Source: Haliotis asinina (Eukaryota > Mollusca > Gastropoda > Lepetellida > Haliotidae). From it: a DNA stretch of 64,000 nt. Location: positions 12,344,501 through 12,408,500 of the forward strand of contig NC_090283.1 in NCBI RefSeq assembly GCF_037392515.1, in the 5' to 3' direction. The notes beneath the pieces were generated by a model. That model was not told the DNA's origin and ran no database searches. It saw only the letters and a program-made list of their open reading frames with translations. Positions 5,123 to 62,685 of this stretch are shown here, in pieces (the first letter of the stretch is position 1; every line of letters begins with the position of its first letter). Position numbers and translations under genes: made by a program.

Positions 5123-5273
5123 ATGGATGATCCTCACCTTTCCGTAACTATTCATGTACCTGCTGTGGCCAATGCTACATTCTCGCATTATGACCTCTGG
5201 AAATGTCGACAGATAGCCCAGATAATGTAAACGATAGCTGGCTTCATTTCATGTTATTTATTGATAATCTGGG
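5123..5273 (-). mobile_element. old LINE fragment L2, first part
   Basis: Reads on the minus strand as the C-terminal RNase H/CCHC region of ORF2 (the part around KGEDPPFCIPC), with many substitutions and stops. It stops abruptly where L3 begins and resumes at 11144. It is therefore an older copy split by L3. The repeated 15 nt tattgataatctggg (5259-5273) is the target duplication of L3. Confidence 0.75.
5259..5273. repeat. target site duplication of L3, left
   Basis: tattgataatctggg, identical to 11144-11158, flanks L3 directly. It fixes the first base of the element as the G at 5274. Confidence 0.92.
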
Positions 5274-5331
5274 GGCACCCGTGGCGAGCCACCTCCTCGT
5301 GGTGGGTGCTGGGTAACGCCAAGAGCTCGCC
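5274..5331 (+). ncRNA. HDV-like self-cleaving ribozyme candidate at the 5' end of L3
   Basis: 58-nt block that can fold as a nested double pseudoknot. P1: nt 1-7 GGCACCC pairs with nt 31-37 GGGUGCU (G1-U37 wobble). P2: nt 10-16 GGCGAGC with nt 52-58 GCUCGCC. P3: nt 18-20 ACC with 28-30 GGU. L3 is UCCUCGU, and C22/C23 can form P1.1 with G38/G39. Position 46 is C, followed by N-A-A before P2, as expected for the catalytic J4/2 strand. P4 is vestigial (U41-G45). In this family the cut is just 5' of nt 1, here exactly the first base after the target duplication. The activity itself is inferred from the fold. Confidence 0.8.
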
Positions 5332-5333
5332 GA

Positions 5334-5420
5334 CACCCCCGTAGTGGACCCGGGGGGATATTTGGTCCACCAACCCGTTTGCCGTGGGTTGCGGCCCTGT
5401 GTCGGTGGAGGAAGGGATCC
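5334..5420 (+). other. GC-rich hairpins after the ribozyme in the 5' UTR
   Basis: GTGGACC (about 5344-5350) and GGTCCAC (about 5364-5370) form a 7-bp stem. AACCC / GGGTT around 5372-5392 forms a second. CCGACAC at 5330-5336 can pair with GTGTCGG near 5398-5404 and would close the domain in this copy, but that pairing is not kept in L6 and L8. Function unknown; a structured leader or promoter region is possible. Confidence 0.5.
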
Positions 5421-5501
5421 TGGTGGTTGAGAGCATGGGAGCAGGACCATTGCTCCTATTGCTCAACACACCAGTTTGGCTCTGACTTCACCTAGACGGG
5501 T

Positions 5502-5524
5502 GGTTGAATGGGCCCGGTTCAACC
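5502..5524 (+). promoter_or_regulatory. covarying 5' UTR hairpin
   Basis: GGTTGAA (5502-5508) pairs with TTCAACC (5518-5524) around the loop TGGGCCCGG. The stem differs between copies while pairing is kept: GGTCGAA/TTCGACC in L7 (39595-39617) and L5, GGTAGAAT/ATTCTATC in L6 (23221-23243). The loop GGCCC core is constant. It looks like a functional RNA element of the leader; role unknown. Confidence 0.65.
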
Positions 5525-5852
5525 AATCGGCTGGTCATGCTAAGCCCTGTACATGTAAATGTTGTTTCACAAATTTGAGAAAATATTTAATTTTTTGTCT
5601 TGGCTTCATGATGATTCATTTGTATTTCGATTGTACAATTCAAATTTCGTAACTTGCCTAGAGTCCTATGTCCAGAAGGCAGTGGCTCATGGGCCAATCA
5701 AGTGGAATAATTACTTTTGTATTATTCTGCTTGAGTATATCATCTGGGTATCCTTTGTGGTGCAGGCAGGAAACCCGCCTACTTTTAGCATTGTCCTTGT
5801 GATACTCCGTGGCGGGTGGGGAGCTCGGATGATGAAACAATATAAACTTACC

Positions 5853-6916
5853 ATGGCTTATGAAACTCCCCTAAAAAAAACAAAACGTCCTCTTGATACT
5901 ACTGTCCTGATGTTGAAGACCAAGGACTGTCCACATCCATTGACTACTGGCCACGGTTTATTGTGATTGAGACCACTGACAACACTCCGTTAAAGCTTAA
6001 CCCTTTTGCAGTATCAAAAGGCATACAGGGCATTGCAGGTGATGTTAGAAACGTTAGACGTTTACGAACAGGTTCTTTGCTTGTTGAGTGCAATAGGAGG
6101 CAACAGGCAACCAATCTCCTTTCAACAAAATCATTTGTAGGCATTCCAGTGTCAGTCTCTCCTCACCGTACTCTTAACACTAGTAAGGGTATTGTGAAAG
6201 ACTGTGATAGACTATTTGCTGATATGCTGGAAATTGACATTGCTGCAGAGATGAAGGACCAAGGTGAGAAGACCCACACAACAGAAGATTGTGACAGTAA
6301 TTACAAGAAATGCACCAATTGTTCAGGAGACCATTCGTCTTTCTCAAAAGAGTGTCCGATTTGGAAGTACCAGATGGAAATAAACAAACTAAAATTTACT
6401 CAAAATATAAGCTTTGCCGAAGCGAAACAACTTGTTCAAAGATGCGATCCGCAAGAAACATATGCTTCTAAAACAAAACCATCATCTGAACCATCCTCTA
6501 AGGCTTCTAAGCCTTCTTCAGCTGCTCAAACAAACTTGACTTGGGTGCACACTTATTCCCCAGAGGTTTTTTCACCAGCTATTTCCACTCAGACCGCTGA
6601 GCTACTTCCTCGCATGTCGCAAAGTCAATCAGGGCCAGCTTCGGATCATGATTCATCATCACAGCCACCTGCAAGGTCTCAATCTTTGTCAAATGTCCAA
6701 AAAATTCCTAAAGGAAAAACTAAACCTATGCCTGATTCTTCCAAAAAGCAAAGTGGCAGAGCCCCAAAGGGGTCTGAAAACAGAATTAAGCTTTATAACA
6801 AATATGGATCACTTGAGGACATGGACGTGTCCGAAAACGTCCAATCAAGGGCGCACAGCTTGTCGCCCTAAAAACAAGCACGGGGTAGATCCCCAATCAA
6901 CCCGCCCAAACGATAA
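5853..6916 (+). pseudogene. LINE L3 ORF1, frameshifted, first zinc knuckle deleted
   Basis: Start ATG 5853 in a good context (accATGG), beginning MAYETPLKKTKRP. A frameshift before about 5966 moves the frame; the main body runs 5963-6871 with IETTDNTPLKLNPFAVSKG and HRTLNTSKGIVKD. Then MKDQG jumps straight to GEKTHTTEDCDSN: 228 nt, counted against the copy at 39365, are missing in frame, with GGTG at both edges. That removes the first knuckle CFKCQ..C and half of the second; CTNCSGDHSSFSKEC remains. TAA at 6869-6871 is premature, because the family C-terminus GRSPINPPKR follows in the same frame to TAA 6914-6916. Confidence 0.88.
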
Positions 6917-6930
6917 TCCATTCCAAAAAT

Positions 6931-9900
6931 ATTGTACAGTGGAACTGTAGAGGCCTAAGGACCAATTTCAACGAGTTACAGCTACTTGTCCAGGATTTTG
7001 CACCATCCGCTTTCTGTCTCCAGGAAACCTATCTGAAGGAGACAGACACTTTTGATATACGTCAGTTCACTCCATATAATTGTTTTTCACCCCCAGGTGA
7101 TAGGGCCACTGGAGGGTCTTCAATTCTTGTAAAGCAGGATGTTATCCATAGTCCTGTAACACTCACAACTAGTCTCCAAGCTTTTGCAGTGAGACTAACT
7201 CTTCACGTTACCTTTACACTATGCTCTTTATATATTTCACCTTCTTCAGCACTCCAGCAGTCTGATCTTCAAGCTCTCTATGACCAGCTTCCTAAACCTT
7301 GTATTTTAATGGGTGATCTCAATGGACATAACCCGATTTGGGGTGGTACAAATACAAACTCTACAGGTAAAATACTGGAAGATTTTATAGCCAATAATGA
7401 CTTGTGTATATACAATGATGATTCAAGCACTTATCTGCACCCTGCAACTGGCACCTGCTCTTCTCTGGATCTGTCTCTTGCAGACCCTTCTCTACTAAAT
7501 GAATTTGAGTGGTCAGTCCACAATGACCTCTGTGGAAGTGACCACTTTCCAACTATCTTAACAGCAATTAATCCATCTGATTCTCCATCTTATACAAGAT
7601 GGAATTTTGCCAAGGCAGACTGGTCGTTATTTAAAACGTTATGCACATCTAAACTACGGCCGCAGTGTTTCAGTGAAGTAACTGGTCCTATTCGGCTTTT
7701 TTCTGACACTTTAAATGAAATAGCTGATGAGTGTATACCAAGGTCTTCTACTGCTCCACATGTACGGAAACCATGGTTCAATTTCGATTGTAGGCAAGCC
7801 AGAAAAGCGAGGAAAAAGGCGGAAAATTATTTCCGCTATCATCCAACTGCCCACAACTCGAATAAGTTTAAAATCCTCAATGCGAAAGCCCGTCGTACCT
7901 TCAAACAAAACAAACGGCAATCTTGGAGGAACTACGTTTCCAGGATTAATTCGCGCACGCCAATGTCCAAGGTATGGAACATGGTTCAAAGAATTAAAGG
8001 TAAAGGTTCTAAATCTTCAGTTCACCATCTCAAAGATGGTGATAATTTAATTACTGACAAGTCTCATAATGCAAATAAAATTTGCGAAACACTTGCCAAA
8101 AATTCTTCATCGGTAAATTATGTCCCTGAGTTTCAGAGATATCAGAAACAACAGGAAAAGAAAAAAACTTAATTTCGAATCAAATAATTGTGAAGATTAT
8201 AATGAAGTTTTCTCATTACATGAGTTGTATACAGCTCTTGACCAAGCTCTTGACACTGCAGCAGGTGATGACAATATTCATTATCAGCTACTGAAACATT
8301 TGCCTGAACCATGTCTGGTCACACTTTTAGATATATTTGACAAAATATGGACGTCTGGAGCATTTCCTCCTTCGTGGCGTAATGCCATTGTAGTCCCAAT
8401 ACCAAAACCTGGCAGGGATCATACAGATCCGTCGAATTACAGACCGATATCTCTCACTAGCTGTGTCTGTAAAACCATGGAACGTATGGTGAATAATAGA
8501 TTAGTTTGGTATCTTGAAACCAATAATCTTATTACAAATATTCAGTGTAGTTTCAGGAAAATTCGCAGTACCATTGATCATTTGGTACGCTTAGAATCCT
8601 ACGTGAAAAATGCAATAGTAAATAAACAACATGCTGTATCAATTTTCTTTGATCTTGAGAAAGCTTATGATACGATCTGGAAGCATGGTATTTTGAGGGA
8701 TTTACATGAATTTGGATTGAGAGGTTTGCGTCTTTTTATATCAGAGTTTTTAAAAGACAGGCCATTTCAAGTCCGAGTAGGTTCTACCCTGTCTGATCAT
8801 TACAATCAGGATCAGGGTGTCGCCCAAGGTAGTATTTTGTCTGTCACTTTGTTTAGTATTAAGATCAACAGTTTATCCAAGGTTTTAAATGATTCAATTG
8901 ATGGATCATTTATTGTGGATGATTTTAATATTTCTTGTCGTGGTAAAAATATGCACACTATTGAAAGACAACTGCAGTTATGTTTGAACAAAATAAATAA
9001 ATGGTGGCTTGAAAATGGCTTCAAATTTTCTAAATCCAAAACTAATTGCATACATTTTTGTAGAAAATATAAGCCGCATAAGGACCCTGAACTATCTTTA
9101 AATGGCACTCCCATCAAGGTTGTAAAGGAGGCCAAGTTCCTGGGTTTAATTTTCGATTCTCATTTAACCTTCTTGCCACACATCAAATCCCTTAAAGCTA
9201 AATGTCTGAAGGCACTAGATTTGTTAAAGGTTGTTTCAAATTCAAAGTGGGGAGGGGATCAAGTTACCCTCCTTCACTTATACAGATCATTGGTACGATC
9301 TAAACTTGATTATGGCTCCATTGTGTATGGTGGAGCCTGTAAAAGCAGCCTCAAACTATTAGATTCTGTCCATCACCAAGGTCTAAGACTTTGTCTTGGA
9401 TCTTTTAGAACCATACCTGTTGCCAGTCTCTATGTTGAGGCTGATGAATCATCTCTTTCACAACGCCGTATAAAATTGTCTTTACAATACATTACTAAAC
9501 TATATTCTAATAAATCTAACCCAGCCTATGACTGTGTCTTCAATCCGCTTTATGAAAATTTGTACGACAATAGGTCTTCTCTTGTTCCACCTCTAGGACA
9601 CAGAATTAAACCCTTTCTTTCTTCCTCCGGCATTGAGCTGGAAAACATAGCTCCCTCCCGTCTCCTTTCTTCTCCTCCTTGGCAGTTGGTTAGGCCACAA
9701 GTTGACCTAACATTAACTTCATTTAAGAAATCAGTAACTAATGAATTACAATATAAACAAGAATATAATCAATTAAAAACTAAATATAGCAGTTATAAAT
9801 CCTTATTTACAGATGGTTCCAAGGAAGGTGGTGCAGTAGCTTGTGCCACTGTCATTGGATCGAGAACAATATCTTCTAGACTTCCCGATAACAGCTCTAT

Positions 9901-10606
9901 TTTTACTACAGAAGCAAACGCCATATTAACCTGCTCTTCAATATATTCAAAGACACCCTAGGCATAAACAGTATGTAATCTATTCAGACTCTCTCTCTTG
10001 CCTTCAGGCTATTAAAAATAGTTCTTGTAAACATCTACTTTTAATAGAAATTGAATTGTACAATAATCTTGCTAATGGCCAGTGCGACATTGTTCTTTGT
10101 TGGTTACCTAGTCACGTAGGCATTTCTGGTAACACAATGGCCGATCTTGCTGCTAAGGCAGCACTCAACAAATCTGTGACACCACTTCTTATTCCATACT
10201 CAGATTATAAAGCTGCAATAAGATCTTATATCCGTGGTCTGATGCAGAAAAAGTGGGACACCCAAGTGGGTATAAATAAATTACATGAAATAAAACCTTA
10301 TATCGGTTATACTTACTTGGGTTGTCAGTCCAGATTTGAGGAGGTCATTATGCGACGATGTCGAATTGGCCATACAAGGTATCAAGGTATACTCACGAGT
10401 TTTTATTAAAAGGTGAAGATCCTCCGTTTTGTATCCCTTGTGATGAAAGAATCACAGTCAAACATGTCCTGCTTGACTGTGTTGAATATTGCATCACAAG
10501 GGATAAATATTTTAATTCACGAACTTTGAAGGATCTTTTTAATTCTGTTAGCTCTCATTTAATTATTGCATTTTTAAAAGAATTAGATTTGCTAAATGAA
10601 TTGTAA
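6931..10606 (+). pseudogene. LINE L3 ORF2, endonuclease-RT-RNase H, three frame breaks
   Basis: Begins at IVQWNCRGLRTN in a frame that is open back into ORF1 (minus-1 relative to ORF1), with no ATG at the start. Endonuclease to about 7580: CLQETYL, LMGDLNGHNPIWG, SDHFP. A frameshift in an A-run near 8160 separates it from RT (8186-9450: WRNAIVVPIPKPGRDHTDPS, FFDLEKAYDT motif A, QGSILSVTLFSIKIN motif B, FIVDDFNIS motif C, LGLIFDSHLTF motif E). RNase H begins SLFTDGSKEGG near 9810. Frame is lost near 9930 and again near 10378. The C-terminal CCHC FCIPCDERITVKHVLLDC lies at about 10427-10480. Stop TAA 10604-10606. Confidence 0.92.
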
Positions 10607-10846
10607 ATAGATAAATATTTTATGCTTGCAAGTTTGAATTAGTAACTTAGAGTGTTAGTGGCTGTATCCTCGAGGGGGTTAAAGCACTGTAAAATTATTG
10701 TCCTCCTGAGAGGGTACATAAGTCCCAAAACGTTTGAAGTCAAATTTGATCTTCCATTTTGTCTTAGCCGTAGAATATGTGTCATTTTAATTTGTGACTA
10801 ATGTTGCTTACAATCACCAGCAGCTGAGGGGATGATGTAAATCCAG

Positions 10847-10896
10847 CTAGGGACCATGCAGGTAGCAGAAGTACTGTCAGTCCCCATGGTCCCTAG
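10847..10896 (+). promoter_or_regulatory. 12-bp 3' UTR hairpin of the LINE family
   Basis: CTAGGGACCATG (10847-10858) is perfectly complementary to CATGGTCCCTAG (10885-10896) with a 26-nt loop. The same hairpin, with small changes, is in all copies that keep the 3' UTR. It may guide RNA recognition or stall reverse transcriptase. Two composite insertions in the window have junctions at it. Confidence 0.7.
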
Positions 10897-11084
10897 TATG
10901 GTGATCTACCTTCAGTTGTTGGTGATCTATATAGCCTGTTTTTTATATTGTATTGTCTGAATACGAATATTAGTTTTAACTTTTCACGCTGGTTTTATTT
11001 CTTATTGTGATATTCTAGTTGTTTTACTGTCCGTCGTCGACAGGTGTTTATCATATACATAGATTCCTTTTTTAAGAATGCTCT

Positions 11085-11119
11085 CGTCACGATATGGCTG
11101 CAATACAGCCGATGTGACG
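11085..11119 (+). promoter_or_regulatory. 3'-terminal stem-loop of L3
   Basis: CGTCAC (11085-11090) pairs with GTGACG (11114-11119), with a 23-nt loop starting GATATGGCTG. It sits directly before TTAA and the ACTC tail. In LINEs with stringent RNA recognition the terminal 3' structure is what RT binds; here that is inferred from position and from its recurrence in a SINE (34701-34736). Confidence 0.7.
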
Positions 11120-11143
11120 TTAAATGTTAACTCACTCACTCAC

Positions 11144-11158
11144 TATTGATAATCTGGG
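11144..11158. repeat. target site duplication of L3, right
   Basis: tattgataatctggg, perfect copy of 5259-5273. Confidence 0.92.
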
Positions 11159-15843: not shown

Positions 15844-17137
15844 CGAGGGTTGGCTGAAACGTTCTAAGCCTGAGTGGTTGTTCCCCACCAGGTAGAGACA
15901 GGTGTTTGCCACCAATGAGGACAATCATTTAGTGAATCATAGACACAAGAACTACAAACGTACTAATAGTTTTACCTCAACTACAGCTCTTTTGGTACAC
16001 CTACCCTCTGAAATCATCAGGAATGGACAAAACTGAATACAGGGCAGTCATCAAGTACTTGCAAAGAAAGCTATGTCCCCAACACAGATACATGCTGACA
16101 TGGTCTCCACTCTAGGGGATGATGCTCCTTCATTTTTCACAGTAAAGAAGTGTGCTGCAGAATTTAAGCGTGGCAGACAAAGCCTTGATGATGACCCGCG
16201 CTCAGGAAGGCCTTCAACAGCAACCACTCCAGAAAACATCACGCGAGTGCTCGATATGTTGATGGATGATCGACGATTGACTACTCGACATATTGCTAGT
16301 GTAGTGGGCATCTCTCATGAGAGGGTTGAGCATATTATCACCAACGAATTAGGAATGACTAAAGTTTCTGCAAGATGGGTGCCAAAGCTCTTGACAGCAG
16401 AACAGAAACGTGTCAGGTTCCAGACGTCCCTTGACAATTTGCGTCGTTTTGAAGCAGATCCCGATGATTTTGTGGCACGATTTGTAACCATGGATGAGAC
16501 CTGGATACATCACTTTCAGCCAGAAACAAAACTACAGTCACAACAGTGGAAGCATCCTGATTCACCAGCTCCGAAGAAAGCCAAGTCTGTTCCTTCAGCT
16601 GGAAAGGTGATGGCATCAGTCTTTTGGGATTCCAGGGGTATTCTGCTCATTGATTATCTTGAAAAAGGTCAAACTGTCAACGGCAGATACTATGCTGATC
16701 TACTGCACCAGTTACGAGAAGCAATCAAAGCCAAACGACGAGGGATGTACGCTAAAGGTGTCCTCTTCCACCAAGACAATGCGCCTGTTCATAAATCGGT
16801 GGTGGCCATGTCAACAATCCGCGATTGTGGCTTTGAACTCATTGACCATCCTCCTTATTCACCTGATTTGGCTCCTTCTGACTTCCACCTGTTCCTCAAA
16901 ATGAAGAAGGAACTCGCCGGGCCCCATTTTGCAAGTAATGATGACGTCATTTCCGCTGTGACTGACTTTTTTTAGGGTAGCTGAAGAAGATTTCTTCCTG
17001 ACCGGGATTCGGGCCTTGCAGCATCGCTGGCAAAAGTGTGTGAACTAGGAAGGGGACTATGTTGAAAAATAAATTACAAACATAGACTTTGTAACTTTTT
17101 TTCACAGTGAGGCTTAGAACTTTTCAGCCAACCCTCG
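15844..17137 (+). mobile_element. mariner element (DD34D) inserted in L4
   Basis: 1294 nt flanked by TA at 15842-15843 and 17138-17139. Left terminal repeat cgagggttggctgaaa and onward (15844-15871) matches the inverted right end at 17110-17137 with one mismatch in 28. Size, TA duplication and repeats are typical of mariner. It interrupts the RNase H of L4 cleanly. It codes for one transposase with two frameshifts. Confidence 0.95.
16023..17048 (+). pseudogene. mariner transposase, two single-base frameshifts
   Basis: N-terminus MDKTEYRAVIKYLQRK at 16023-16070 is one base out of frame with the body, which opens at 16073. Body: helix-turn-helix type DNA-binding half (residues 1-110: STVKKCAAEFKRG-like motif, WVPKLL linker), then catalytic DD34D: D of VTMDETWIH, D of FHQDNAPVH and, 34 residues on, D of YSPDLAPSD. 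A run of seven T at about 16967-16973 shifts the frame to TAG 16973-16975; the expected C-terminal RWQKCVN continues in the next frame to about 17048. With one T fewer the frame would be whole, so a recent loss or a sequencing slip are both possible. Confidence 0.93.
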
Positions 17138-22994: not shown

Positions 22995-23052
22995 GGCACC
23001 CGTGAACGGCCACCTCCTCGTGGTGGGTGCTGGGTCATGCCAAGAGCCGTTC
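22995..23052 (+). ncRNA. HDV-like ribozyme candidate of L6, variant P2
   Basis: Same 58-nt frame as the others without any indel. P2 is GAACGGC (nt 10-16) with GCCGUUC (nt 52-58), against GGCGAGC/GCUCGCC in L3: pairs 11, 12, 13 and 14 all changed on both strands. P1, L3 and C46-N-A-A are unchanged. This compensated change is the strongest evidence that P2 exists as RNA. Confidence 0.82.
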
Positions 23053-24865: not shown

Positions 24866-27800
24866 ATGAATCACTTGACAAATCTAATTCAGTGGAATTG
24901 CAGAGGACTGAGGAGTAACTTAAGTGAAATACAATTACTCATACACGATCTTAAACCGTCAGCATTGTGTCTACAAGAGACATATCTAAAAAACACCGAT
25001 AACTTTAACTTAAGGCGGTATAGTGATTATCACTCTTTTGCCCCTCCAGGTGATAAGGCTACTGGGTGTGCTTCTATTTTGGTACATCAGAGTGTCATCC
25101 ATAGCCCTGTTACTCTAACTACGGATCTTCAAGCTGTTGCTGTTCGTCTGACCTTGCTCATTGCATTGACATTGTGCAGCTTGTATTTACCTCCTTCTTC
25201 TAATATTCAACAATCGGATCTTCAAAATCTGTATGATCAACTTCCGAAGCCTTGTGTCATCATGGGCGATCTTAACGGACACAACCCGCTTTGGGGTAGT
25301 CCTCACACAAATACTAAAGGAAAACTACTTGAAGAATTCATTTCAGATAACAATTTGTGTATTTTCAATGACGACTCTACCACTTACCTACATCCAGCTA
25401 CGGGATCATATTCTTCCCTGGATTTATCACTAACCGATTCCAACTTATATAATGAATTTGAATGGCATGTCCATGATGATCTATCAGGGAGTGATCACTT
25501 CCCTACCATTCTCAAAACAATCGACCCTGGTGATGATCCACCTTTATCTGGAAGGAATTTTGCCAAGGCTGATTGGTCATTATATACAACATTATGTACT
25601 GATCTTTTAAAACATGATGTTTTTGCGAACAGCGATGATCCAATACAATTATTTTCTGATTTGTTGAATGATATTGCTGACCGAACTATACCCCAGGCCT
25701 CTGCAGTTCCACATATTCGTAAGCCATGGTTCAATAACGAATGTAAACAGGCCAGAAAGTGTAGGAAAAAAGCAGAAAAGTATTTTCGCCGACACCCTAC
25801 CGTACATAATCTAGACAGAGTTAAAATTTCCAATGCCAAAGCTAGACGCACTTTTAAGCAAAATAAGCGGCAGTCTTGGCGACATTATGTTGCTAAAATC
25901 AATTCACGCACACCTGTCTCAAAGGTATGGAACATGATTCAAAGAATAAAGGGCAAAGGTTCTAAATCAACAGTTCACCATCTAAAGGATGATATCCACT
26001 ATCAGCTCCTGAAGCATTTGCCCGAATCGTGTTTGGAAACACTCCTAAATATATTTGATATGATATGGACTACAGGGAGTTTCCCACCTTCGTGGCGTAA
26101 TGCCATTGTAGTCCCTATACCAAAACCTGGCCGGGATCATACTGATCCGTCTAACTACAGACCAATCTCTTTAACGAGTTGTGTCTGTAAAACCATGGAA
26201 CGTATGGTGAATAATAGATTAGTTTGGTATCTTGAAACCAATAACCTAATAACAAATATTCAATGTGGTTTCAGGAAAAATCGCAGTACCATTGATCATT
26301 TGGTACGTTTGGAATCCTTCGTCAAAAATGCTATAGTCAATAAACAACATGCTGTATCAATTTTCTTTGATCTTGAGAAAGCTTATGATACGACCTGGAA
26401 GCATGGCATTTTAAAGGATTTACATGAGTTTGGTTTGAGAGGCCGTTTGCCTCTTTTTATATCAGAGTATTTAAAAGACAGGCAATTTCAAGTCCGAGTG
26501 GGATCAACCCTGTCTGACCATTATAATCAGGATCAGGGTGTTCCACAAGGCAGTATTTTGTCTGTAACACTCTTTAGTATCAAGATAAACAGTTTATCCA
26601 AGGTTTTAAATGATTCAATCGATGGATCACTTTTCGTGGATGATTTTAATATTTCTTGTCGTGGAAAAAATATGCATACTATTGAACGGCAACTGCAGTT
26701 GTGTTTAAACAAAATTAACAAATGGTGTCTAGAAAACGGCTTTAAATTTTCTAAAACGAAAACCAATTGTATACATTTCTGTAGGAAATACAAACCGCAT
26801 AAAGATCCAGAATTGTTTCTAAATAGTACTCCCATCAAAGTTGTTGAGGAGGCCAAGTTCTTGATTTTCGACTCACATTAAACTCACATTTAACGTTTCT
26901 CCCCCATATCAAGTCCCTAAAAAATAAATGCCTGAAGGCGCTGGATTTATTAAAGGTCGTTGCTAATTCAAAGTGGGGATTTGATCAAGCTACCCTCCTT
27001 CACTTATATAGATCATTGATACGGTCTAAACTTGATTATGGCTCCATCGTTTATGGTGGAGCCTGTAAAAGCAACCTAAAACTTTTAGATTCTGTCCACC
27101 ACCAAGGTCTAAGACTTTGTCTTGGATCTTTAAGAACTTCACCTGTTGACAGCCTTTATGTCGAGGCTGATGAGCCATCTCTTGAGCAGCGACGTATAAA
27201 ATTAGCTTTACAGTATATCACAAAACTATGTTCCCATGAGTCAAACCCTGCATATGACTGTGTCTTCAATGCTCTCTACGAGGATTTATACAATAAGAAA
27301 TCTTCCCTTGTTCCGCCTCTTGGTTTAAGAATAAAAAATTTAAAAAATCAGAAACAAATGAATTACAATATAAACAAGAATAAAATAAATTGAAACATAG
27401 ATATAGCAATTATAAATCCTTATTTACAGATGGGTCCAAGGATGGTGGCGCAGTGGCCTGTGCCACTGTCATTGGATCCAGAACAATATCTTCTAGATTA
27501 CCAGATAATAGTTCTATTTTTACAGCTGAAGCTAACGCCATATTGACAGCTCTTAAATATATTCAAAGACACCCTAAACATAAACAGTATATAATCTATT
27601 CCGACTCTCTTTCTTGTCTTCAGGCTATTAAAAATATTTCTTGTCAACATCCACTTTTAATTGATATTATTGAATTGTATAATAATCTTGCTACTGGCCA
27701 ATACGACATCGTCTTTTGTTGGTTACCCAGCCACGTAGGCATTTCTGGTAATACAATGGCAGACCTTGCTGCTAAAGCAGCACTCAACAAATCTGTGACA

Positions 27801-30186: not shown

Positions 30187-30244
30187 GGCGAGCTCTTAGC
30201 GTGACCCAGCACCCACCACGAAGAGGTCGCTCGCTACGGGTGCC
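30187..30244 (-). ncRNA. HDV-like ribozyme candidate of L5
   Basis: Same 58-nt layout. P2 is AGCGAGC/GCUCGCC, with the outermost pair lost; nt 17 is G and L3 is UCUUCGU. P1 and C46 are intact. Probably slightly decayed. Confidence 0.7.
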
Positions 30245-34407: not shown

Positions 34408-34465
34408 GGTGAGCTCTTGGCGTTACCTAGCACCCACCACGAGGAGGTGGCTCGCCACGGGTGCC
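34408..34465 (-). ncRNA. HDV-like ribozyme candidate of L4
   Basis: 58 nt. P1 intact. P2 GGCGAGC/GCUCACC has one mismatch. G38 is changed to A, which would weaken P1.1. Cut site equals the end of the duplication. Confidence 0.7.
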
Positions 34466-39364: not shown

Positions 39365-39422
39365 GGCACCCGTGGCGAGCCACCTCCTCGTGGTGGGTGC
39401 TGGGTAATGCTAAGAGCTCGCC
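39365..39422 (+). ncRNA. HDV-like ribozyme candidate of L7
   Basis: P1, P1.1, P2 (GGCGAGC/GCUCGCC), P3 and C46 are all intact. Only nt 44 (U) and nt 47 (U) differ from L3, both in positions that should tolerate change. Confidence 0.8.
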
Positions 39423-39959: not shown

Positions 39960-41236
39960 ATGGCTTATGAAAATCCAACAAAAAAACAAAACGTCCACTT
40001 GATATTGACCCTGTTGATAGTGACCATAGACCGTCTGCATCGATTGAGTATTGGCCGCGTTTCATCGTGATTGAGACTCCAGACAAGACACCGTTGAAGT
40101 TGAACCCCTTTGCTGTATCCAAGGGTATTCAGGGTATTGCAGGGGACGTGAAGAACATAAGACGCTTACGTTCAGGTGGCCTACTAGTAGAGTGCGGGAA
40201 AAAGCAACAAGCAACTAATTTGCTTAACATCAAATCTTTCGTGGGCATTCCGGTCACGGTCTCTGCACACAAAACCTTGAACTCCAGCAAAGGTATCGTT
40301 AGAGATCGCGACCGATTGTTTGATGATATGTCGGAACTTGATATAGGATCTGAAATGAAGGATCAAGGTGTACTCTACGTCAAGCGCTTTTCAACTCGCA
40401 GAAACAACGAAACCATCAAAACGAACACGTATCTGTTTACCTTTTCATGTCCTAATGCTCCCAAATCAGTGAAGGCAGGCTACTGTAATATTCCAGTTGA
40501 TACCTACATCCCCAACCCGTTAAGATGTTTTAAATGTCAGAAATATGGACACGGTGTGAATACTTGCACATTGTCTGTTGTGTGTGCTCACTGTGGTGAG
40601 AAGACACACACAACAGAAATTTGTGACAGTGATTATAAAAAATGCACCAATTGCTCAGGCGATCATTCTTCATTTTCTAAACAGTGTCCAATTTGGAAAG
40701 AACAAATGGAGATCAATTAAATAAAATTCACACACAATAACTCTTTTTCTGAAGCCAAAAAACTGGTAAAGAGATCTGATCTTCCAGAAAGTTATGCTAC
40801 AATAGCAAAAATATCATCGGGTTCTAGCTCTAAAACAACATCAACCACAGGCTGCCAAACTACCTTGACTTGGGTAAACTGTGATTCTCCACAGCCTTTG
40901 TACCCTGCTATATCATCACAGACTGAGGAATCACTTCCTAGTACATCAATGTCGTTTTCTGATCACAAATCATCATCATCTCAGTCACATTCAAAGTCTC
41001 AATCAACAGCTGATACTCAACAAACGGTGAAAAGTAAACCGAAGCCAAAGCCTGATGCTTCAAAACAACAAAGTGGCAGACCTCCTAAAGGGTCACAAAA
41101 TAAAGTTCAATTGTTTAATAAGTATGGGTCTCTTGAAGACATGGACGTTTCTGAAAACGTCCATTCTAGGGCACATAGCTTGTAGCCCTCCAAAAGAGTG
41201 CGGGGTAGATCCCCAATAAATCCCCCCAAAAGATAG
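39960..41236 (+). pseudogene. LINE L7 ORF1, one frameshift and two stops
   Basis: ATG 39960 (MAYENPTKK), then one base is lost in the A-run and the frame ends at 40070; the body reads from 40067 (IETPDKTPLKLNPFAVSKG, HKTLNSSKGIVRDRDRLFDD) through CFKCQKYGHGVNTC, CAHCGEKTHTTEIC and CTNCSGDHSSFSKQC to TAA 40718-40720, a K-to-stop change. The tail continues in frame (TWVNCDSPQPLYPAISSQ) with TAG inside SLSP near 41185, and ends PPKR at TAG 41234-41236. Best reference for the complete ORF1 length, about 425 residues. Confidence 0.9.
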
Positions 41237-41250
41237 TTTATTCCAATAAT

Positions 41251-44200
41251 ATGGTACAGTGGAACTGCAGAGGATTAAGGACTAATGTACATGAATTACA
41301 GCTATAAGTCCAAGATTTCACACCTTCAGCGATATGTCTTCAAGAGACATATTTAAAACAAACAGATACATTTGACCTTCGTCATTTTAATGCATATCAT
41401 TGTTTTTCACCTCCAGGTGATAGGGCCACTGGCGGATCATCCATTCTAGTCAGACAAAACGTTATTCAAAGCCCTGTTCCACTTAATACTAATATGCAGG
41501 CTGTTGCTGTGAGAATTACTTTACATGTAGCGTTTACACTATGCTCGCTTTATATTTCACCGTCTTCCGTGTTTGCCAAAACCGATCTTCAAGCTCTATA
41601 TGACCAACTCCCGAAGCCTTGTATTATAATGGGAGATTTAAATGGACACAACCCACTTTGGGGTAGTGTAACTACAAACACGAAAGGTAAGTTGTTGGAG
41701 GACTTTTGTTCTGACAATGATTTATGTATTTATAATGATGGTTCCAACACATATTTACACCCTGGGACAGGGACCTATTCTGCTCTTGACTTGTCATTCA
41801 CAAATGCAGAACTACTAAATGAATTTGAATGGTCAGTCCACGATGACCTCTGTGGAAGTGATCATTTTCCTACTATATTAAAAGCTGTAACTCCATCTGA
41901 TGTTCCTCCATCATCAAGACGAAATTTTAAAAAGGCTAACTGGGCTTTATATGAAACACTGTGTTCTGAAAAACTTAAGCCTGAACGTTTTATTGACGTT
42001 CCTGATGCTATTAAATGCTTTTCTGATGAACTGAATTCCATAGCTGATGAGCGTATACCAAAGTCCTCTGTAGTTCCACACATAAGAAAACCATGGTTCA
42101 ACGATGACTGCAAACAAGCTAGGAAGGCAAGGAAAAAAGCAGAACATTATTTCCGTCGCCATCCTATGGTGCATAATTTAAATAAATTTAAGATTTTAAA
42201 TGCTAAAGCACGGCGTACTTTTAAACAGAACAAACGCCAATCTTGGCAACATTATGTATCCAAAATAAATTCTCGGACACCCATGTCCAAGGTGTGGAAC
42301 ATGGTCCAGAAAATAAAAGGTAAAGGTACTAAATCTACGGTCCATCATCTTAAACATGGAGATCAATTACTTGCTGATAAATCAGATATTGCGAATAAAC
42401 TGGGCGAAACTCTTGCTAAACATTCTTCCTCTTCTAATTATATACCTAAATTTCAGCAATATCAAAAACAACAAGAAAAGAAAACTATTAATTTCAATTC
42501 TGATAATGGGGAAGATTATAATGAAACGTTTTCTATTCATGAACTCCATACTGCTCTTGATCAAGCTCATGATACTGCTACTGGAGCTGAAAACATACAT
42601 TATCAACTCCTGAAGCACTTACCAGAATCCTGTTTAGAGACGCTCTTATCAATTTTTTGATAATATTTGGACTTCCGGGAAATTTCCTTCTTCATGGCGT
42701 GATGCCATAGTAGTACCCATACCTAAACCTGGACGTGATCATACGGATCCATCCAATTATCGTCCGATTTCATTAACTAGCTGTGTTTGCAAGACCATGG
42801 AACGTATGATAAATAATCGACTTGTTTGGTACTTGGAAACTAATAATCTTATCACAGATATACAATGTGGTTTCCGGAAAAACAGAAGTACTGTCGATCA
42901 CTTAGTGCGTTTAGAATCATTTGTGAAAAACGCACTGATTAATAAACCACATACTGTGTCTATCTTTTTTGATCTTGAGAAGGCATATGACAAACTGGAA
43001 ATATGGCATACTGAGAGATTTACATGATTTCGGTTTGCGAGGTCGTTTGCTTGAATTCATTGCTAAATTTTTAAATAACAGGCAATTTCAAGTCTGATCA
43101 TTATAATCAGGATCAGGGTGTTCCACAAGGCAGTATTTTGTCTGTCACTCTTTTTAGCGTCAAGATCAACAGTTTATCTAAAGTTTTAAACGATTTAATC
43201 GATGGATATTTATTTGTGGATGATTTTAATATTTCTTGCCGCGGTAAGAATATGTATACCATTGAACGGCAACTGCAGCTGTGTTTAAACAAAATTGATA
43301 AATGGTGTCTTGAAAACGGCTTTAAATTTTCTAAATCAAAAACTAATTGTATACACTTCTGTCGTAAATACAAACCCCATAAAGAACCAGAACTATTTCT
43401 CAGTGGTACCCCAATCAAAGTTGTCAAGGAGGCCAAGTTCTTGGGACTCACATTTGACCTTTTTGCCGCATATTAAATCCCTTAAAGCCAAATGCCTGAA
43501 GGCACTCGATTTATTAAAGGTAGTTTCAAATTCAAAATGGGGAGGGGATCAATCTACCCTTCTCCACTTATATAGATCACTGATCCGATCTAAACTTGAT
43601 TACGGCTCCATCGTCTATGGTGGCGCTTGTCAAAGCAACCTAAAACTACTTGATCCTGTGCACCACCAAGGCCTAAGACTTTGTCTTGGTTCTTTTAGAA
43701 CCTCTCCTATCGACAGTATATATGTCGAAGCTGATGAGCCTTCTCTCAACTTACGTCGTATTAAACTATCTTTACAATACATTACAAAAATAGCTTCTAA
43801 TGAGTCTAACCCCGCATTTAATTGTGTTTTTAATCCTCCCTATGAAGATTTGTATAACAAAAAGTCTTCCCTTCTTCCGCCTCTTGGGGTCAGAATTAAG
43901 CCATTTCTTGCTGCTTCTAGCATTGAGCTGGACCATATAGCTCCTTCCCGTCTTCTGTCTTCTCCTCCTTGGCAGTTGGTTAGGCCACAAGTTGACCTAA
44001 CATTAACATCACTTAAAAAATCAGAAACGAATGAATTACAGTATAAACAAGAATATAATCAACTGAAACATAAATATAGCAATTATAAATCCTTATTTAC
44101 AGATGGGTCCAAGGACGGTGGCTCAGTAGCTTGTGGCACTGTCATTGGATCCAGAACAATATCTTCTAGATTACCCGATAATAGTTCTATTTTTACAGCT

Positions 44201-44890
44201 GAAGCTAACGCCATATTAACAGCTCTTAAATATATCCAAAGACACCCTAAACGTAAACAATATATAATCTATTCTGATTCTCTTTCTTGCCTCCACGCTA
44301 TTAAAAATTTGTCATGTAAACATCCACTTTTAATTGATATTATTGAATTGTATAATAGTCTTGCTACTGGCCAGTACGACATTGTCTTCTGTTGGTTACC
44401 AAGCCACGTTGGCATTTCCGGTAACGCAATGGCCGATCTTGCTGCTAAGGCAGCACTCAACAAATCTGTGACACCACTTCGTATTCCTTATACTGACTAC
44501 AAAGCTAGCATTAGAGCTTACACTCGTGATCTGATGCAGAAGAAGTGGGACACCCAAGTAGGTATAAATAAACTACATGAAATAAAACCCTACATTGGTT
44601 ATACATACTTGGGTTGTCAGTCCAGATTTGAAGAAGTCATTTTGCGACGATGTCGTATTGGCCATACAAGATACACTCATGCATACCTTTTAAAAGGTGA
44701 GGATCCTCCGTTTTGTATCCCTTGTGATGAGAGAGTCACGGTCAAGCATATTCTGCTTGACTGTGTTGAATTCTCCATCACAAGGGATAAATTTTTCAAT
44801 GTCAAAACTATCAAGGAGCTTTTTAGCACTGTTAGTTGTCATTTAATCATTGGTTTTTTAAAAGAAATTGATTTTTTGGTGGAATTTTGA
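41251..44890 (+). pseudogene. LINE L7 ORF2, endonuclease-RT-RNase H-CCHC
   Basis: ATG 41251 (MVQWNCRGLRTN). TAA follows near codon 18. Endonuclease: E32 in LQETYL, D129 and N131 in MGDLNGHNPLWG, D204 and H205 in GSDHFP. 388 codons are open 41494-42660; a T-run near 42653 shifts the frame; RT core 42660-43440 is broken three times (near 43000, a loss of RVGSTL near 43093, and near 43448). From 43450 to TGA 44888-44890 it is open: RT end, RNase H (FTDGSKDGGSVA 44098, TAEANAI 44198, YSDSLSC 44270, LPSHVGISGNAMADLAAK 44396) and CCHC FCIPCDERVTVKHILLDC 44712-44765. Confidence 0.93.
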
Positions 44891-52099: not shown

Positions 52100-52619
52100 G
52101 TTGTAAAGAAGTAAATTCGACATCCCTGCTCCCCACCCGCCATCGAGTGTCAACAAGGACGACATAGCAGTGGAAACCAAACTGCAACACCAGGGTTACA
52201 GGGATGTTATACTCCAGCAATTGGGACATGAAAAGCTATGAAATCAAAAAGAATAAATGTCAGGCTGGTTCGGTCCATGACATCATTCCCAAGAACCACA
52301 GATTTCAGAGGCCCATATTACCAGATTGGCCCATGAGCCACCGCCTTCTGGCATAGGACTCTAGGCAAGTTCATGTGATCAAACATTAATACATTCTAGA
52401 TCAGAAAAACAAGACTCATTGATAATGTATTCTGCAAGTATATTCACCATGCGCAGGGCTTGGCGTGACCAGCCGATTGATAGAATCGGGCCAATTCTGT
52501 CACCCGTCTAGGTGAAGTCAGGGCCAAAGTGGTGTGTTAGGCAACAGGCACGTGGGCCGCAACCCACGGCTAACGGGTTGGTGGACCAAATATCCCCCCG
52601 GGTCCACAACGGGGGTGTC

Positions 52620-52677
52620 GGCGAGCTCTTAGCGCTACCCAGCACCCACCACGGGGAGGTGGCTCGCCACTGGTGCC
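52620..52677 (-). ncRNA. HDV-like ribozyme candidate of L9
   Basis: 58 nt. P2 perfect, P3 and L3 (UCCCCGU) kept. P1 lost its last pair (nt 7 A against G31), so cleavage may be weaker. C46 kept. Confidence 0.7.
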
Positions 52678-57406: not shown

Positions 57407-57464
57407 GAACGGCTCTTGGCGTTACCCAGCACCTACCACGAGGAGGTGGCCGTTCACGGGTGCC
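57407..57464 (-). ncRNA. HDV-like ribozyme candidate of L8, variant P2
   Basis: P2 GAACGGC/GCCGUUC as in L6, again perfectly paired. P1 has one mismatch (nt 31 A). It shows that the compensated P2 type is not private to one copy. Confidence 0.75.
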
Positions 57465-62627: not shown

Positions 62628-62685
62628 GGCACCCGTGGCGAGCCACCTCCTCGTGGTGGGTGCTGGGTAACGCTAAGAGCTCGCC
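62628..62685 (+). ncRNA. HDV-like ribozyme candidate of L11
   Basis: P1, P1.1, P2 (GGCGAGC/GCUCGCC), P3, C46 intact; only nt 47 (U) differs from L3. Confidence 0.8.

Follow-up and report, generated by a model that had tools for sequence, protein, structure and literature searches.

HDV-like ribozymes cut just 5′ of their P1 helix. Among the LINEs with which the locus described here can be compared, R2 encodes a restriction-like endonuclease in its only ORF, L1Tc possesses RNase H, and Baggins, found in animals, belongs to the LOA clade. The occurrence of HDV-like ribozymes at LINE 5′ ends is already established. R2 and R4/Dong have, like the present element, an HDV-like double pseudoknot at the element 5′ end (PMC3774820, PMC5035012); the RNAs of R4, Dong and Drosophila R2 are cut at the 5′ junction, and in some R2 ribozymes the nucleotides available are too few for a P4 helix (PMC3774820). 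Baggins and RTE LINEs also have a 5′ HDV-like ribozyme with the cut at the junction (PMC3774820), a likeness to the present locus at the level of published description. The superfamily scheme of PMC10294476 groups LOA with I, and thus an animal I-superfamily LINE with a 5′ ribozyme is not new in itself. In trypanosomatids, the L1Tc/ingi elements carry at their very 5′ end the HDV-like Pr77 ribozyme, which frees the element from a co-transcript; in L1Tc, Pr77 is a 77-nt signature that includes a P4 helix and also has a promoter role (PMC4035085, PMC8256844). Minimal HDV-like ribozymes that lack P4 occur in phages and metagenomes (PMC10879173).

The window (the entire 64,000-nt stretch of Haliotis asinina DNA analyzed here) contains eight copies of a non-LTR retrotransposon, four per strand, each of which opens with a 58-nt block. 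The blocks start at 5274, 22995, 39365 and 62628 on the plus strand (5274..5331, 22995..23052, 39365..39422 and 62628..62685) and at 30244, 34465, 52677 and 57464 on the minus strand (30187..30244, 34408..34465, 52620..52677 and 57407..57464), precisely where the original prediction had placed them. The proposed fold is also found in these blocks: P1 pairs positions 1-7 with 31-37, including G1-U37, in all eight copies, P2 (10-16/52-58), P3 (18-20/28-30) and P1.1 (22-23/38-39) hold as claimed, and C46-N-A-A is present in all eight. The four copies at 5274, 22995, 39365 and 62628 form all 19 pairs, and the other four lack one or two, namely, one P2 pair at 30244 (18/19), one P2 and one P1.1 pair at 34465 (17/19), and the P1 pair 7-31 both at 52677 (an A7/G31 mismatch, 18/19) and at 57464 (18/19). 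The constant length of 58 nt, likewise claimed, applies to 8/8 window copies but not to the flanking copy L016 (L016:4789-4860), in which the block measures 72 nt and includes two additional 7-nt TGGGTGC units, in tandem, at the 3′ strand of P1 and P1.1; this copy has a 14-nt duplication at the insertion. The 5′ part is changed in the flanking copy L009 and in one of the L015 copies as well. The 60 nt located 5′ of the block are different in all eight window copies, so that the element itself begins with the block. It is very probable, judging from these sequences, that full-length copies of this I-type LINE open with a minimal, P4-less HDV-like ribozyme that would cut 5′ of G1, which is nucleotide 1 of the element.

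P1 is separated from C46 by only eight nucleotides, of which two belong to P1.1, and hence the P4 helix is absent, with no room seen for it. Given that P4-less forms are known elsewhere, this absence is unusual but not new. The published minimal ribozyme drz-Mtgn-1 (sequence from PMC10879173) has an identical 7-nt L3 and the same 8-nt spacing from P1 to the C, whereas J4/2 is two nucleotides longer in the present block. The minimal ribozymes (drz-Mtgn, theta) are P4-less like this block but have been traced to phages, where they are often found beside tRNAs (PMC10879173), whereas the present block is located in a LINE. In comparison with Pr77, the block consists of 58 nt, lacks P4 and belongs to a two-ORF element. 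Unlike R2, the present element has two ORFs, an AP-endonuclease and RNase H, and, whereas R2 targets 28S genes (PMC3774820), the eight window copies have differing flanks. The core of the R2 ribozyme, CCUCCUCGUGG, is identical to that of the present block (PMC5035012). The 11-mer CCTCCTCGTGG, present in six of the eight window copies and nowhere else in the window, is reportedly the most conserved sequence of the R2 ribozyme in Drosophila and zebra finch (PMC5035012). Convergence as the explanation of agreement between distant LINEs is discussed by the R2 authors (PMC3774820) and, by analogy, the core shared in this case may be convergent.

An Rfam covariance search, which the original prediction had suggested as a check, identifies RF02682 at the 5′ ends of six of the eight copies and in the correct orientation, although all these matches are below the gathering score (22.7-25.2 bits against a cut-off of 44); at the gathering score, there are no Rfam matches in the window. 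The permissive search of the window (E<=10) yields 17 matches, of which six are to RF02682, all at 5′ ends; this is the sole family that matches more than once, and two other families, each with a single match, have better E-values than every RF02682 match. No match to any Rfam family is obtained at E<=10 for the 5′ ends at 52677 and 57464. In the first copy, the RF02682 match spans 5274-5330, and the HDV model itself, RF00094, matches at 5272-5370 (E 0.28 in a 301-nt search), both on the plus strand and below the gathering score; the latter match extends past the block, so that its P4 and 3′ part fall beyond it. In five flanking loci, RF02682 matches four further 5′ ends, the best of these, with 30.7 bits, ranking below three matches to miRNA models that are likewise below their cut-offs. 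The structure lines of both RF02682 and RF00094 leave P2 unpaired, and therefore the low scores limit the filing of the block under these two families rather than its fold class. A covariance model built from the eight window copies and run on the 200 kb flanking the window detects ten more matches, all at an E-value of 1.3e-8 or lower; seven of them align over 58 nt. Another flank match, L017 (E 0.91, 42 nt), lies inside the leader and was rejected as false. The resulting 15-row alignment omits four of the 19 model matches, namely, L016 (72 nt), L009 (54 nt), L015:4095-4147 (53 nt) and L017.

In the window copies, 96.7% of the helix cells are paired and, in the 15 aligned copies, 95.8%, compared with 33-47% when the partners are slid by 1-3 columns. 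All 19 pairs are kept in 7 of the 15 copies, the remaining eight lacking one to three pairs. The compensatory changes are found in P2. Within the window, P2 of 22995 and 57464 differs at four pairs, with all four changes compensated, which could be a single event; the blocks of 5274 and 57464 have 9 differences, 8 of these in P2 and all 8 compensated. Among the 15 copies, four P2 pairs are changed on both sides, and there are eight P2 versions, five of which are fully paired (5′ strands GGCGAGC, GAACGGC, GAAGAGC, GAACAGC and GGTAAGC). The cells changed on both sides number 18, against 6.1 +/- 1.9 in shuffles, and none of the 500 shuffles reaches this value. The count of doubly changed pairs (4) is not above that in shuffles, being reached by 135/500 for the 15 copies and by 26/500 for the eight, and the count of further pair types in the 15 copies (11) is not unusual against shuffles either. 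P1 and P3 are nearly invariant and accordingly show little covariation, so that their support comes from the pairing and from the Rfam match. None of the 15 copies deviates at U21, G26, G39, G45, C46 or A48, and 14 of them have C46-N-A-A. U21 and G26 are the L3 letters for the reverse wobble, a feature of HDV-like ribozymes described in PMC3774820; the agreement is in letters, with the contact itself predicted.

The element copy at 5274-11144 spans 5,871 nt and ends with an (ACTC)n tail. It is bounded by a 14-nt target-site duplication, with the 5′ copy at 5260..5273 and the 3′ copy at 11145..11158 (plus strand), directly after the tail. An exact target-site duplication ending at nucleotide -1 is present in 9 of the 15 copies tested (5274, 22995, 34465, 39365, 52677, 62628, L007, L021 and L016). 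These duplications are 11-15 nt long as found by the script, with a few letters overlapping the tail, and the border is ambiguous by one G in 39365, 52677 and L021 because the target continues with G. The duplication at 30244 is imperfect (10/11 nt), that of L008 runs four nucleotides on (through GTTC), so that this copy probably begins inside the block, and no duplication was found in 57464, L002, L006 and L010, i.e., in four of the 15 copies tested, a set that left out L009 and both L015 copies. In the control, matches of at least 11 nt occur at 19 of 2000 random places in the window, with offsets of 0-3 allowed. Given that the duplications end at the border of nucleotide 1, the start of these copies coincides with the predicted ribozyme cut. 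Such agreement between the border and the predicted cut in most copies would be expected of a self-cleaved template RNA but fits a transcription start at +1 as well.

Internal promoters starting at +1 are used by many I/Jockey-type LINEs, and the block might be such a promoter, with the uniform 5′ ends resulting from initiation at nucleotide 1 and with a fold that is non-catalytic. The conservation of the leader behind the block, much of which matches that of the block itself, would suit regulatory DNA. In the first copy, this leader (5332..5560, plus strand) is largely conserved in the alignment; the conservation extends to about nucleotide 290 and is roughly level with that of the block overall, with a dip midway, and thus the ribozyme cannot be distinguished by its conservation alone. 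However, a DNA motif would not require P2 to vary in a compensated manner along its length, or the HDV active-site letters to stand in register; a mere promoter palindrome was rejected given the P2 covariation, and a promoter with a non-catalytic fold appears very unlikely. A promoter and a ribozyme can coexist, Pr77 of L1Tc being both (PMC8256844).

The leader also contains a hairpin with covariation (5501..5525, plus strand), in which one pair is of three types, UA/AU/CG. Its covariation score is reached by 1 of 500 shuffles, and its number of doubly changed pairs by 82 of 500. In L006:5158-5733 (minus strand), a single ribozyme is followed by two tandem copies of a part of the leader (about 98-282). 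For R2, involvement in translation or protein binding has been proposed (PMC8256844), and our guess, by analogy, is that the leader of the present element might serve one of these functions. The presence of this second covarying hairpin after the block would also be compatible with the possibility that the block is a former ribozyme that now acts solely as a structured RNA, in protein binding or cap-independent translation, cleavage having been lost in old copies; the one to three missing pairs in 8/15 copies and the disruption of ORF2 in the copy at 5274 would fit such a loss. The loss of cleavage is difficult to reconcile, however, with the invariance of C46, U21 and G26 in 15/15 copies, with the full set of pairs kept by 7/15, and with the insertion borders that coincide with the cut site in most of the copies tested, so that this explanation seems highly improbable.

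A chance inverted repeat was rejected given a register scan and descriptor counts in shuffled windows. The scan counted standard pairs among the 19 proposed ones in every 58-nt register of both strands (127,884 positions), and the top eight registers are the eight 5′ ends, with 17-19 pairs, the next best having 16; when the 5274 block was shuffled by mononucleotides 200,000 times, the maximum was 17 pairs, reached twice. A looser descriptor, composed after the block had been seen, gives latitude in J1/2, J2/3, L3, P4 and J4/2 and accepts at least six of the seven P1 pairs. On the real window, it yields eight matches, exactly the eight 5′ ends, and on 748 dinucleotide-shuffled windows it yields 790, or about 1.06 per window; when all seven P1 pairs are required, six of the eight 5′ ends are recovered. 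In the 200 kb of flanks, the fixed-register scan gives scores of 16-19 for seven full-length copies, and 18/19 is also reached by three unrelated registers, two in a tandem repeat and one elsewhere. When pseudoknots are disallowed, the fold energy of the first 167 nt does not surpass that of shuffles (z = 0.34), and a competing nested fold is the minimum-energy fold for most of the eight 58-mers, the exceptions being 22995, 52677 and 57464.

The HDV-like ribozyme reading put forward originally is thus supported by the Rfam matches, albeit below the cut-off, the compensation in P2, the invariant active-site letters, the 11-mer core shared with R2, and the borders at nucleotide 1. Under this ribozyme reading, a copy would be transcribed within a longer transcript, and the nascent RNA would fold into the double pseudoknot, in which C46, like C75 of HDV, would assist cleavage of the phosphodiester bond immediately 5′ of G1. 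The element RNA would be released with a 5′-OH and with nucleotide 1 as its first letter. Being located 3′ of the cut, the ribozyme would stay in the element RNA and would be reverse-transcribed, so that each new full copy would regain a ribozyme at its 5′ border. The same mechanism is already known for the ribozymes at LINE 5′ ends. From the sequence, we infer that self-cleavage would take place, that it would occur from read-through transcripts, and that the leader would have a role in translation or packaging.

The I superfamily is characterized by an ORF1 with CCHC motifs and an ORF2 that combines AP-endonuclease, reverse transcriptase and RNase H; to our knowledge, Jockey-clade elements have no RNase H in ORF2. 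In the element at 5274, ORF2 is split over two frames, the first part (6889..8172, plus strand) encoding an AP-type endonuclease (Pfam PF14529, PF03372) and the second part, in a different frame (8117..9961, plus strand), the reverse transcriptase (Pfam PF00078). In the element at 39365, an ORF1 piece (39971..40720, plus strand) contains CCHC zinc knuckles, and the C-terminal part of ORF2 (43289..44890, plus strand) encodes RNase H (Pfam PF00075). Altogether, CCHC motifs are found in 4 of the 6 ORF1 pieces examined and RNase H, by Pfam, in three open frames. Thus, from the "I/Jockey-type" label of the original prediction, the I-type part can be retained, given the AP-endonuclease, reverse transcriptase, RNase H and CCHC ORF1, whereas the Jockey assignment is rejected because RNase H is present. 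An R2-type element is rejected as well, the element having an AP-endonuclease and RNase H instead. For the mollusc genomes analyzed in PMC10294476, the I superfamily comprises only the Nimb and Ingi clades plus one unnamed octopus clade. A protein search with one ORF2 detects 1464 relatives and, among the 120 listed, nearly all are without a name. Two pattern scans of viral contigs gave no matches each, and a protein-profile scan gave 236 pattern matches, none of which was confirmed. A scan of genome contigs identifies a single 3.8-kb contig with a relative of ORF2 (66% identity in the best segment), on which the covariance model of the block has no match; this contig is binned in a Sulfurovum MAG and is probably animal DNA in a bacterial bin. 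A text search of the literature for a 17-nt stretch of the element's 3′ end gave no match.

Protein identity among the ORF1 pieces ranges from about 45 to 80% or more. The copies at 5274 and 52677 are 95% identical over the first 124 nt (5274-5397 and 52554-52677) and show about 50% identity over the best-aligned 121 residues of their ORF1 pieces; the excess of 5′-end identity over ORF1 identity suggests that the 5′ ends either are strongly constrained or have been exchanged between lineages. Despite sharing the P2 version with 22995, the copy at 57464 can be aligned through both the leader and ORF1 with 5274 and 39365; the alignment of 22995 to these two stops after about 430 nt, and from there on to 24235 only 52677 still aligns with it. 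This pattern hints at recombination of leaders. At 25988-25992, the identity of the 22995 element with the 5274 element jumps from about 69% to 85%, along with a jump in the alignment, which marks a chimera or a rearranged copy. Some copies are nested (14484-62628): on the evidence of alignment and duplications, the minus-strand copy 52677 lies inside the minus-strand copy 57464, and the plus-strand copy 39365 lies inside the (ACTC)n tail region of what appears to be the same 57464 element. Sequence matching the body of the 5274 copy makes up 0-66% of each 10-kb segment of the flanks. The window also contains a 312-aa open frame for a mariner/Mos1-like transposase (16037-16975, plus strand).

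No earlier report of an HDV-like ribozyme in a molluscan LINE was found in a literature search that reached few subscription papers, so that priority is not established. What appears to be new, and is well supported at the sequence level, is the LINE family, the compact P4-less form in a LINE setting, and the natural series of compensatory P2 variants. A broader possibility, which we consider unlikely, is that the I superfamily ancestrally possessed an HDV-like ribozyme, such that the present element and L1Tc/ingi would derive theirs from one ancestor; the ribozyme would then have shrunk to the P4-less form in this lineage, with a second structured leader driving cap-independent translation of the 5′-OH RNA. 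The element described here adds another I-type LINE family to those that would define their 5′ ends by an HDV-like ribozyme. The five swapped P2 helices within one 264-kb stretch provide natural compensatory mutants for studying the release of LINE RNA from read-through transcripts and may help to ask whether LINE clades inherit such ribozymes, exchange them or evolve them anew.
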